Shown here: piece by piece, positions 32,626 to 64,000 of the stretch
Layout: each line of letters opens with the position of its first letter
Numbering within the stretch: position 1 is the stretch's first letter
Assembly: GCF_033568475.1 (NCBI RefSeq)
Contig: NC_133121.1
Location: forward strand, 201,138,664 to 201,202,663
Length of the DNA: 64,000 nucleotides
Direction of reading: 5' to 3'
DNA from: Henckelia pumila
Lineage: Eukaryota > Streptophyta > Magnoliopsida > Lamiales > Gesneriaceae
Made by a program: the position numbers and the translations under genes
Notes under the pieces: model-generated
Told to the model about the DNA's origin: nothing
What the model saw: the letters and a program-made list of their open reading frames with translations, nothing else
The model's database searches: none

Positions 32626-32652
32626 TTAGGGTTTAGGGTTTTGGGTTTAGGG
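32626..32652 (+). repeat. Telomere repeat, proximal edge of LINE array
   Basis: Four units (TTAGGG, TTTAGGG, TTTTGGG, TTTAGGG) between the truncated LTR and the poly(T) of LINE unit A. The G-rich strand is the plus strand. Confidence 0.9.
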
Positions 32653-32669
32653 TTTTTTTTTTTTTTTTT

Positions 32670-33516
32670 AAAGGAAAAACCGCCGGAAGCCGGGGGGTGG
32701 GGGTAGGCAGACCCCTACCTGTATATATAAACATAAAAAGAGGTACAAAAAAAAATAAAAATAAAAAATAAAAAACCTAACGGAGGAGGGGGACTAGGCC
32801 AGGACCTCCCCAAAAGGCTATACAAATGTAATAGTAACATCAGAACAGCTAGGGTATCGGAAAAAATACAACCAGAACATCCCTAGAAAATAAGTAAATA
32901 CAGAGAAAATCAATGACAGCTAACGATGTCATCGTCAGCAGTCGACCTGTGCAGTAAAAAGCAAGTAGAGATCCACAACTCAAGGCCACCAAAATCAAAA
33001 TCCGACACTGAGGCGCGAAAAGTGGCTGGCACCATCCAGAGCTGAACAAAAGATCAAAGCTACGCTAGAAATATGTCCAAAAGTCACGATCAGCTGGGAA
33101 GTCACTATACATCAGAGGCCGCCAGGAAAAAGGAGGAGCGACCGCAAACCAGCTGACCCGAAGCAAAATATCAGGAAAATGGCGAAGGAAACTCAAGCCA
33201 TATCCAAAAGCCCAAGAAGACTGGAAATCCAAAAAGCAAGGGGTGCGAGAGGCCGCCCACAAAACAACCATCCAACAGCAAGAACCAGGTAAGGGGAACC
33301 ACAGTGAACTCCTGGCAAATCCATCTCCCTGAAGAAGCAAAGCGAGCGATAGGGAAACAAACTAACTCCAAAAAAAACTCCGAAAAAGGGCCGGAGAGCT
33401 GTACCTGCAAAGAAAAATATATAGCTACATATATAAATAACTCTAGGCGAGCCTAGAGGAAAAGAAGGTGGAATAAAAAGAAGCCCAAAGAAGCGGCGAA
33501 AAGGGAGCAAAAAGCT
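32670..33516 (-). other. 3' untranslated region of LINE A
   Basis: The first ~150 bases from the left are the tail shared by all six units. At 33441-33458 is a perfect stem-loop (CTCTAGGCGAGCCTAGAG) and at 33515-33532 a second, related one overlapping the ORF2 stop. Overlapping short frames are not supported. Confidence 0.7.
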
Positions 33517-36500
33517 CTAGGTGAACCTAGATCTAAGGTAGGGGAGCCCGGATAAATCAGAATGGGCCAAAGCATTGATGGGAGTGGTTAAAGGAACACC
33601 AATCTCCAACAAACACTGCCTATGATCATGAGCCTGCCACGCCAACGCATCCGCAACCGAATTACCTTCCCGAAAGATATGCGAGAAATGAACCGGCCTA
33701 TTCCGCACCAGAACACGCGTCCTCGAAACAATATGATCCAAATACCAATGACATCTCCGAGATCTAAGAATCTGAATGGCAATCTGGGAATCGGTCTCAA
33801 TCCAAAGGGGAAAAAGGCTAAGGTCAGAACAGAGAAGAATACCCCTCCAATTCGCCCAAAGTTCTGCACGGACATTGGACCCCAAACCAATGAACTCACT
33901 AAAAATCGCCAAGACCATACCAGAAGAATCCCGGACAAACCCTCCCACAGACGACTCACCAGGGTTACCTCTCAAGCTCCCATCCACATTGATCTTGAAG
34001 GACCCAGGAGGAGGCCTCAACCAACGGACGATGGCAGTCTTGTGAATCCGTTGGAGGCCGACCGAGATGCCCATCTTCCTCGCAGCCTGCATAGCCCCCA
34101 GCCAAAGACGGGGCTTGATAACAGTTGCGGAATGGGCAAGTCTTGAATAAGACAAAATTTGGAACTTAACCGTCTCCGTAGAGGAGGGTAAGTGACGGTG
34201 CTTAGCATCATTGCGTGCAGTCCAAAGGAACCAAAACACGACAAAAGGAAGGAATTCCCTCACATTACCCCCCGAAGACCACTCGCGACCCCTTTTCCAA
34301 GAACTAAGAAACAAACTGAAGTTCTCAGTGATAGGGATGCGAACTCTGAAGATAGCCCCAAAGAAATGCCACACAGAGCGGGCGATGGGACCATCAATGA
34401 AAATGTGCGTGAATGTCTTCGACATCTCACAGCAGTGGCACTTGGACACAAGAGAGAAACCTCACTGCTGGAGCATCTCATCCACAGGCAACCACCGATG
34501 CCAAAACCTCCACAAGAAGAAGGACATGGTGGGCCTCATCTAGTGCCCCCAACAGGGAGTAAAGATATCCGAGACCGAGCCTCTCGGTCTGACCTGCTCC
34601 CAAGCAGATCTCACAGAAAAAGCACTATCGGTGCTGTGGATCCAGATAGCCGCATCCGGCTCATCCACCAAAATAGGAATCTGAATGATCTCCTCCGCCA
34701 CCGAGGAAGCGACGACAGCGCAGAGGAGATCAAAATCCCAGTCTCCATCCAATAGGAAGCTAGAAACATGGACAGACCGATCCTCTCTGACATCATAGCT
34801 GCTCGACAGAGGGGCGTCACCCAACCAAGTATCATCCCAAAAAGAGACATCCCCAAGACCAATCCTGCACCGGATACCAGGCTCTGCACGAGGTCTAATC
34901 TGGAGCAAGCGCCTCCAAGTGGGGGAAATGGCTCCACGAGAAGGAGCACAAATAGGGCTGACAATCCGGCAATACTTCCTCGAAAGGAACCTCGCCCAAA
35001 GAGAGGAACGCTGCCGAAATCTGAACCACAGCTTCATGGAAAAGCTGTCAACAATGTCCTTGAGCCTGCGAAAACCCAGGCCTCCTTCTTTCACAGGGAG
35101 GCAGGCGCGAGACCAGCGGGCCCAGTGCCACTTCTTCTCTAAGGGTCTGGAGCCCCAAATAAAAGCATTAAAAATAAGCTCCAATTTCTCTAAAACAGCC
35201 AAAGGAGGCTGGATCACATGGCAGAGATAGATTGGGATCGAAAGGAGCACACTGCAAATCAGCATCATCCTACTCCCAGGAGCAAGGGAACGAGACTCCC
35301 AGCCCTCCAGCTTTTTCCAGACCGACTGCAGAAGAGGCTCAAACAGAGAGCACTTACGGTTCCCACGGAAAAGCAGAGCTCCAAGGTATTTCAAGGTCAG
35401 CTGCCCCTCCATGAACCCTGTGATGCGCAGAAACCTGGAGCGGCGACGAGCGGTCCAGCCCGGAGGGAAGATCATAGCGCTCTTGGCCACATTAACGAGC
35501 TGGCCTGAGCAATTCTCATAGTGAGCCAAAAAGTCTTTGAGCCGCTGAAGACCGCGAGATCCCCCATTGGAAAAAATAATGACATCGTCAGCATAGGCCA
35601 AATGGGAGATCGACAAATCACACCCAGATCGGTACCTCATATCTGCATGCTGGAGGAACAACCAGTCCAAGCCCCGGGACAGATATTCCGCTCTGAGAAC
35701 GAAAAGGAGGGGAGATAACGGGTCACCCTGTCTCAGGCACCTCGAGGAAGCAAAGAAACCAGCAGGGGTGCCGTTGAAATTAACAGAGAACTTGCAAAAC
35801 AAAATGCAAGCCCTCACCATCCTCACGACTTGCTCCAAAAAACCAAACCTCCGGAGGACATCCAAAAGAAAAGACCATTGGACTCTATCATAGGCCTTAG
35901 CCATGTCCAATTTCAGAATGACATTGCCACCACGAGCAGGGAGATTAAGACTGTAAATGAGCTCTTGCGCGAGAAGGATATTGTCAGCAATCATCTGCCC
36001 CGGAACAAAGCCACTCTGACTCTGAGAAACGAGTCTCCCCACCACCGACCTCAGACGAGTGTATAAAAGTTTCGAGATGATCTTGTTAGAAACATTACAC
36101 AAGCTGGTGGGACAGAAGTCCGTCCAAGCTTGCGCACCCTCGACTTTGGGGATCAAATTGATCGTGGTGGCAGCGAATCCCTGGGGCATAAGAGAGCCCT
36201 GAAAGAAATCAAGGACGGCGTCCATGACATCATGCTGCACAAAATCCCAGCAGCTCTAAAAGAAAACCGAAGAATACCCATCGGGGCCCGCCACACTATC
36301 CCGAGGGATGGATAAGACGACAGCACGAACCTCCTCCAAGGAAGGTGCGGCGGCAAAGCTAAGGTTCTCCTCCTCCAAAATCTCCAAGGAGAAGCTAGAA
36401 AAATCCGGAAGATCCAGGACAAAGGGATCTCCAGTGAGGAGGCGCTCGAAATAGGCAGCCCCAGATTGCTTGATAAGACCAGGAGAGGTGAGGCAAATTC

Positions 36501-63132: not shown

Positions 63133-63161
63133 GGTTTAGGGTTTAGGGTTTAGGGTTTAGG

Positions 63162-63162
<1 letters not shown>
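63132..63162 (+). repeat. Telomere repeat between LINE E and F
   Basis: Four perfect TTTAGGG units followed by the poly(T) of unit F. Confidence 0.96.
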
Positions 63163-63195
<33 letters not shown>

Positions 63196-64000
63196 CCGCC
63201 GGAAGCGGGGGGGTTAGGCGGACCCCTACCAGTATATATACATAAAAGACAATACAAAGAAACCTAAAGGAGGAGGGGGACTAGACCAAGACCTCCTCTA
63301 AAGGCTATACAAGGCAAATAAAAACATGAAAACATCTAAACATCAAAACATCAAAACATGATCACATAAAAGACATCAGATGCCCAAAAACAGTATAAAC
63401 AGGAGGCAGGGAGAAATCACCAGTAAACGCCCACTGAATACCGTCCAATCAAACCATCATCAACAAGCAGTCAAGGTGGCCTATCCAAAGCAGCAGAAGA
63501 CTGACTCTGTTGCCTCTTGAAACTGCGTCGAGACATAGGATGCGGGCGAACAGAAGGGGGCCGGCGAGCCTGCGCAGCCTGCTGATCTCGTAACTCCTTA
63601 GAAGTAAGAGGCTGAACCTCCGCATAAACAGAATCAAAATCACGAACCGAATGACGCGCCAAATGAGACTGCTCACGCATGTCCAAATCCAAAGGATGAA
63701 TAAAAACCAACCCCGGAGAAGGAGAAGTAAGCACCTGAGGCGGAGCATCCACAAGCAACGGATCAGAGGGAGGCTGAGACTGGGCCTCCAATAACATCTG
63801 ACCAGCCAGAGGCTGATCAGGAACAGTCACCATAACCTGAACGGTCTCCAGGGGCTCAGCAGAGGTGGTAGAAACACCAGAGGGCTCACCCTGATCCAAA
63901 CTAACATCCCGGAGGGCATCAAATCGTCCTAAAGGTAAAGGCAGCCCTTGACCCGAAGAAAGCGGCTGCCTACGTCTACCCTGTTTAACAGTCCAAACTT
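63163..64000 (-). mobile_element. Gag-only LINE unit F, runs off the window
   Basis: Poly(T) 63163-63187 (longer than in E), then sequence nearly identical to unit E for the remaining 813 bases, with a handful of substitutions. The 5' end lies beyond the window. Confidence 0.93.
63471..64000 (-). CDS. LINE F ORF1, C-terminal part
   Basis: The frame is open from the window edge to the stop at 63471-63473. It matches the last ~175 residues of the unit E protein with a few changes, for example RRSFKRQQ for RHSFKRQQ. The knuckle and DUF4283 would lie outside the window. Start not visible. Confidence 0.88.
   Translation of the reverse strand, partial: VWTVKQGRRRQPLSSGQGLPLPLGRFDALRDVSLDQGEPSGVSTTSAEPLETVQVMVTVPDQPLAGQMLLEAQSQPPSDPLLVDAPPQVLTSPSPGLVFIHPLDLDMREQSHLARHSVRDFDSVYAEVQPLTSKELRDQQAAQARRPPSVRPHPMSRRSFKRQQSQSSAALDRPP

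Follow-up and report, generated by a model that had tools for sequence, protein, structure and literature searches.

Head-to-tail L1-clade LINEs among telomere repeats at a chromosome end of Henckelia pumila

A 64,000-nucleotide stretch of the Henckelia pumila genome (the window hereafter; G000:C2:201138664-201202663, in an 884.7-Mb assembly of 133 contigs) holds six long interspersed nuclear elements (LINEs) of the L1 clade, stacked head-to-tail between 32,653 and 64,000, all on the minus strand, and set among TTTAGGG-type telomere repeats. The evidence supports the view that one LINE lineage, here called T, is nearly confined to telomeric tracts in a fixed orientation. We consider it probable that this lineage primes on the telomeric G-strand, at eroded ends or in their vicinity, and that the end of pseudomolecule C2 was built by repeated LINE addition. 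C2 has 201,204,019 bases and ends 1,356 bases past the window, inside open reading frame 1 (ORF1) of the last unit; that the array reaches the pseudomolecule end was counted in favor of this reading. A second H. pumila contig of 201,206,415 bases is 2,396 bases longer than C2, and another version of the chromosome may exist.

Anatomy of the array at the C2 end

On the plus strand each unit shows the same order of telomeric tract, poly(T), and antisense LINE. The poly(A) end is thus proximal and adjoins the TTTAGGG-type repeats, the 5' end is distal, and the G-rich telomeric strand runs toward high coordinates. The first-pass annotation of this DNA had described six L1-type units, all on the minus strand, with their poly(A) ends joined to telomeric GGG on the proximal side, and a reading of the array from 32,653 to 64,000 bore this out: GGG stands directly ahead of the T run at 6/6 junctions. 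Of the 44 plus-strand copies of TTTAGGG in the window, 43 lie beyond 32,600, and TTTAGGGTTTAGGG has 19 matches in the window, all on the plus strand, with none in 100 shuffles.

The inner edge of the array is a 27-bp telomeric tract (32626..32652, found by TRF and a script; this and all tracts below are on the plus strand). Unit A (32653..~40560) and unit B (~41290..47516) belong to a second lineage, AB; A has broken ORFs and a nested insert at 38,387-38,941, with ends that match repeats in other parts of the window, and B is 5'-truncated within ORF1. Between them lie an interval (40561..40868) with short telomere-like bits, a possible 14-bp remnant of a LINE 3' end and about 280 bp of other DNA, and a 421-bp telomeric tract with variant repeats (40869..41289, TRF). 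The earlier statement that TTTAGGG-type repeats separate all units therefore holds for tracts of 20-421 bp, with the qualification that the A-B gap also has these ~280 bp of non-telomeric DNA (40,595-40,868). By eye they end in a piece resembling a transfer RNA (tRNA), as does the possible remnant a LINE tail; ARAGORN found no whole tRNA in the window. A similar piece, likened by eye to a tRNA or a short interspersed nuclear element, precedes the LINE tail at two other loci (L042 and L043).

A 28-bp tract (47514..47541, script) leads to unit C (47542..~55190), a T-lineage copy with both ORFs open: ORF1 at 52,548-55,094 (minus strand, 848 residues, DUF4283) and ORF2 at 48,724-52,548 (minus strand, 1274 residues), the latter with endonuclease, reverse transcriptase (RT), zf-RVT and RNase H domains and about 90 residues short of other copies (1274 vs 1365). 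The next tract (55191..55240; 50 bp by TRF, 41 bp by script) is followed by T-lineage unit D (~55241..60466), 5'-truncated near the ORF2 start and with ORF2 split over two frames, and by a 20-bp tract (60467..60486, script). Units E and F contain ORF1 only and carry a T-type 3' tail. Unit E spans 60487..63133 (ORF1 at 60,789-63,038, 749 residues) and, after a tract at 63133..63165 (33 bp by TRF, 28 bp by script), unit F (~63166..64000) crosses the window end into the adjoining stretch (L009). Pairwise identity is 90.8% for A-B, 91.6% for C-D, 99.4% for E-F (828 bases) and 78-82% for A/B vs C/D; the near identity of the two distal units was counted for repeated addition at the end.

In Pfam analysis of units C and E, ORF1 carries DUF4283 and ORF2 an apurinic/apyrimidinic endonuclease (APE)-type endonuclease (PF03372), RT, zf-RVT, and RNase H, the domain set of the plant L1 clade. 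The nearest relatives are plant LINEs, with Primulina, Dorcoceras, and other plants among the best protein matches. For ORF1 of unit E there were 11 protein matches, the named ones being Primulina and Dorcoceras; at the DNA level ~100% identity was found only in E and F, followed by 70-81% (best 40 of 162 candidates). An RT tree of 85 sequences (FastTree) places T (support 0.90) and AB (0.99) within one H. pumila clade (0.91). A tree of 37 3' tails gives support of 82 to the T group and 100 to its core of 11, and its proportions carry no meaning since copies were partly picked as telomeric.

The LINE 3' tail (for example at 55,280-55,310) contains an antisense G run followed by TTAGGC, which is vaguely telomere-like and occurs in telomeric and dispersed copies alike. 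G-quadruplex enrichment as in other telomeric LINEs was unsupported, with one antisense and one sense motif in six units (A-E and the first unit on the right of C3). Outside the array, the window has a 60-bp unit repeated three times at 17,651-17,833 and a perfect 119-bp tandem duplication at 30,310-30,542.

Junctions, lineages, and arrays across the genome

The junction orientation seen in the window is the only one that pattern searches of the assembly found. GGGTTTAGGG followed by T12, a pattern without LINE letters, occurs at 27 places genome-wide with none for the reversed control, and 21 of the 27 are confirmed junctions of this LINE family; the mirror pattern (CCCTAAACCC, 0-6 bases, T12) occurs at 0 places genome-wide. 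TTTAGGG followed by T10, 0-28 bases, and CACCGCCGG was found at 23 places (control 0). Exact (TTTAGGG)5 gave 93 overlapping matches grouped into 11 places (control 0), nine of them within LINE arrays (seven on C3 and one each on C2 and C4); the remaining two are at C1:3.47 Mb and on contig C11, which opens with telomere repeats (bases 1-858). A chance origin was rejected, as there were no matches in shuffles or in nearly all reversed-pattern controls; the sole non-zero control was a single match (1 and 0) for T10, 0-28 bases, and CACCGCCGG, set against 649 overlapping forward and 89 reverse matches.

The phase of the junctions is nearly constant, with GGG standing before the T run at 27 of the 28 principal junctions read that have a telomere-like tract, a count that leaves out two micro-junctions (L031 and L032) and in which many copies are related. 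Each of these two loci has an extremely 5'-truncated LINE, a 3' end of ~25 bp, with telomere-like repeats and a further LINE behind it. Most spacers are short, with 19 of the 20 measured at or below 94 bp (median 43.5) and 23 of 24 when L030-L032 and L041 are added (median 42), the short tracts of L029 and L034-L036 being left out of both statistics. Telomere repeats are unlikely to be a fixed part of the element because the tracts range from 13 to 421 bp and are absent from dispersed copies.

The association was then read by lineage, using as query a 1,201-base RT segment free of telomeric letters. Among the best 40 of 246 candidates, eight places match at 92-100% (the T copies) and, after a gap, 32 at 81-82%. 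A telomeric tract was read at the 3' end of 5/8 T copies (units C and D, two on the right of C3, and one on C4). The sixth, an inverted unit on the right of C3, shows a GGGTTTAGGG-T12 junction where one is expected (C3:204,088,203), which makes a tract probable by position; the seventh (C1:160.2 Mb) has a 13-bp tract and the eighth (contig C119) is without a 3' end. Three of the 32 lower-identity copies lie in known arrays (unit B, C3:383.6 kb, and C3:2.891 Mb), the flanks of the other 29 being mostly unread. Fisher p values for T copies versus 3/32 are 0.004 (5/8), 0.0005 (6/8), and 0.00005 (7/8), with copies of one array treated as independent, which they are not.

Further arrays were found on C3 (204,334,071 bases; C1 has 183,104,128) and C4. 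The array on the left of C3, at 373-393 kb, consists of one unit of full-length type, one truncated unit and the beginning of another, each with its 5' end facing the left end of C3, and stretches 98.5-99% like this array occur at C3 0.78 and 2.9 Mb. On the right of C3, at 204.07 Mb, there are two consecutive units, followed by the third unit head-to-head. ORF1 (863 residues) and ORF2 (1365 residues) are both open in the first unit; in the second, ORF2 is open (1365 residues) and ORF1 is cut. The LINEs of the head-to-head pair (C3:204,082,001-204,086,000, L040) are each cut in ORF1, with arms 97.8% alike, and the pair is possibly an end-to-end fusion, an inverted duplication or an assembly error. 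On C4, at 229.62 Mb, a 43-bp tract beside Ty3-type sequence leads to a 5'-truncated unit; distal to this unit, telomere repeats extend for ~1.04 kb, which was counted in favor of the scheme proposed below, up to a gap of 100 N and satellite-like DNA. We infer that this array is a chromosome end misplaced by scaffolding. AT-rich satellite-like repeats occur near the C3 and C4 ends (L013, and L039 past the N run).

Proposed mechanism and competing explanations

The following sequence of events is the one we favor. Lineage T, together with its mixed relative AB, would make first-strand complementary DNA on the telomeric G-strand, where a 3' end in GGGTTT, left by nicking at TTT|AGGG or already there at an eroded terminus, would pair with the poly(A) tail and prime reverse transcription. 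The 3' end of the element would hence always be proximal and the 5' end distal, and frequent early stops of synthesis would yield 5' truncation. The new end would regain TTTAGGG, either through telomerase or because it is joined to what is left of the telomere, after which the next element can follow; ORF1-only elements with the same 3' tail would ride along. Orientation and phase are fixed on this scheme because the primer ends in GGGTTT, whether nicked or terminal, and the short spacers suggest that elements insert at eroded ends or close to the inner edge, or that the tracts shrink afterwards. The first-pass annotation had raised a plant lineage of telomere-targeting or telomere-extending LINEs. 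Telomere association stands, given T at the tracts, 27 places versus 0, and an array 1,356 bp from the end; telomere extension fits the anatomy, and its use as telomere maintenance is a possibility.

Several observations weigh against this scheme. The wider LINE family is mostly dispersed, away from telomeric tracts. The annotation had named, as one half of what would refute its proposal, that most genomic copies lie in non-telomeric DNA, and for the wider family they do: TTTAGGG adjoins the T run at 11 of the 89 reverse-strand sites of the family (one per site among the matches listed). Lineage T is mostly telomeric. A tail motif was present at 31 places, and the eight further copies chosen from these had no telomeric tract. 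Four dispersed copies (L029, L034, L035, and L036) have more than 300 bp of upstream flank in common, including a short telomeric tract, and therefore represent one event that was copied. The T group as defined by 3' tail (n = 17) speaks for the scheme in that 14 have a tract of at least 20 bp and one has 13 bp, and against it in that two, duplicates of each other, have AGGG only; these counts were obtained with a query that carried 46 telomeric bases and may favor telomeric copies. The inverted third unit on the right of C3 had its 3' tail missed by both genome-wide tail searches. As to position, the C3 array at 2.87-2.90 Mb points inward, and the arrays at C3 0.38-0.81 Mb, C3 204.07 Mb (260 kb inside), and C4 229.6 Mb (3.9 Mb inside) are not at assembly ends. 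At other pseudomolecule ends no telomere array was found in seven stretches from five ends (10-kb pieces, among C1-C4 left and C3 and C4 right). All of this was read from the assembled sequence.

The strongest competitor is a narrower form of our reading, insertion into existing arrays only, in which the endonuclease nicks TTT|AGGG internally and the elements are telomere parasites that add length incidentally. We rate it a real contender, at somewhat under an even chance. An endonuclease domain is present in ORF2, the junction phase is that of such a nick in 27/28 cases, and TRAS1 of Bombyx mori nicks TT|AGG in the same phase (PMC7265360). The single orientation, which had been offered as an argument against random insertion, holds genome-wide; for end extension it is weaker than claimed because a TTT-ending primer exists only on the G-strand, and internal insertion would orient elements likewise. 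Against this explanation stand the spacers of ~20-94 bp, shorter than random insertion into kilobase arrays predicts unless tracts shrink later. The 5' junctions have 0-3 bases of microhomology, ambiguous in the cases read, so that they do not tell healing from internal insertion.

Untargeted L1 activity at broken or eroded ends, where a few telomere repeats would be added to heal a break and the free end would be open to any L1 RNA, would account for tracts that begin inside Ty3-type elements (L022 and L028) and for AB-lineage copies at tracts as well. The strong concentration in one lineage, obtained by a query without telomeric letters, argues otherwise, and we regard this explanation as unlikely. 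More doubtful still is maintenance of the HeT-A kind, in which LINEs join the 3'-OH of termini as a main route of chromosome lengthening, with ORF1-only partners. Orientation, stacking, terminal position, the ORF1-only units, and the scarcity of perfect telomeric tracts elsewhere in the assembly agree with it; TTTAGGG between the units, however, points to ongoing telomere-repeat synthesis, the missing terminal arrays may be an assembly shortfall, and only a few ends are seen. An assembly artefact or tandem segmental duplication is very improbable: arrays do lie in places beside contig ends or N runs, and the head-to-head pair at C3:204.08 Mb would suit it, but the units (E-F excepted) are of different lineages and truncation points and diverge by 8-22% in sequence, the window array contains no N, and the same junction type recurs at several places. 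Copying of one unit by the assembler was rejected because the units diverge and their truncation points differ.

A larger claim, that H. pumila chromosome ends are kept by a hybrid of telomere repeats and dedicated L1-clade LINEs (an autonomous lineage with ORF1-only partners), the first in a land plant, is speculative and in our judgement rather improbable. If true, the hybrid system would perhaps mark a transition toward telomeres based on retrotransposons, and the last sequence on some chromosomes would be a LINE rather than a long TTTAGGG array. A plant with stacked, recently active copies could be used to test LINE rescue of short telomeres in the presence of ongoing telomere-repeat synthesis, and could show how retrotransposon-based telomeres arise.

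Comparison with known telomeric elements

In Drosophila, HeT-A, TART, and TAHRE likewise stand head-to-tail at chromosome ends with an ORF1-only partner. Their 3' ends are proximal, as in the Henckelia units. The Drosophila array lacks telomerase repeats between units, whereas the Henckelia array has TTTAGGG there. Human L1 is reportedly able to insert at dysfunctional telomeres independently of its endonuclease, primed from telomeric DNA, in repair-deficient cultured cells, as Morrish is said to have described in 2007; that case concerns cultured cells with no genomic lineage, in contrast to the genomic lineage of Henckelia.

TRAS1 and SART1 of B. mori belong to the R1 clade. They share with the Henckelia element the build of poly(A) LINEs with two ORFs placed within telomere repeats (PMC7265360, PMC4700185). 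The TRAS1 endonuclease nicks between T and A of TTAGG (PMC7265360), and the nick phase suggested by the Henckelia junctions would be the same. TRAS1 and SART1 insert in opposite directions (PMC7265360, PMC4700185), whereas the Henckelia element is found in one direction only. Among reported telomere-targeted LINEs, from insects, Giardia, fungi, green algae, and an anole lizard, Zepp1 of Chlorella is, by its description, likewise a green-lineage LINE at telomeres, but it is from an alga (PMC10088271). Searches of the open-licence PubMed Central (PMC) literature, with subscription journals outside that coverage, turned up no telomere-targeted LINE in a land plant and, among the papers naming H. 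pumila, no genome paper by title.

The layout is closest to that of MoTeR1 and MoTeR2 in Pyricularia (Magnaporthe) oryzae, which form head-to-tail arrays split by half to more than 20 telomere repeats (PMC7367193). Like the Henckelia array, these arrays have their 5' ends directed toward the chromosome end and include 5'-truncated copies, relics in internal positions, and a partner that lacks RT but has the same ends (PMC7367193). MoTeR differs in its putative restriction-like endonuclease and in the telomere-like repeats that its own terminus carries (PMC7367193). The Henckelia element is a plant L1 with an APE-type endonuclease; ORF2 of unit C carries PF03372 in place of a restriction-like endonuclease. 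By analogy with these systems, we read the Henckelia array as a MoTeR-like layout combined with a TRAS-like mode of priming, which would have arisen among plant L1 elements.

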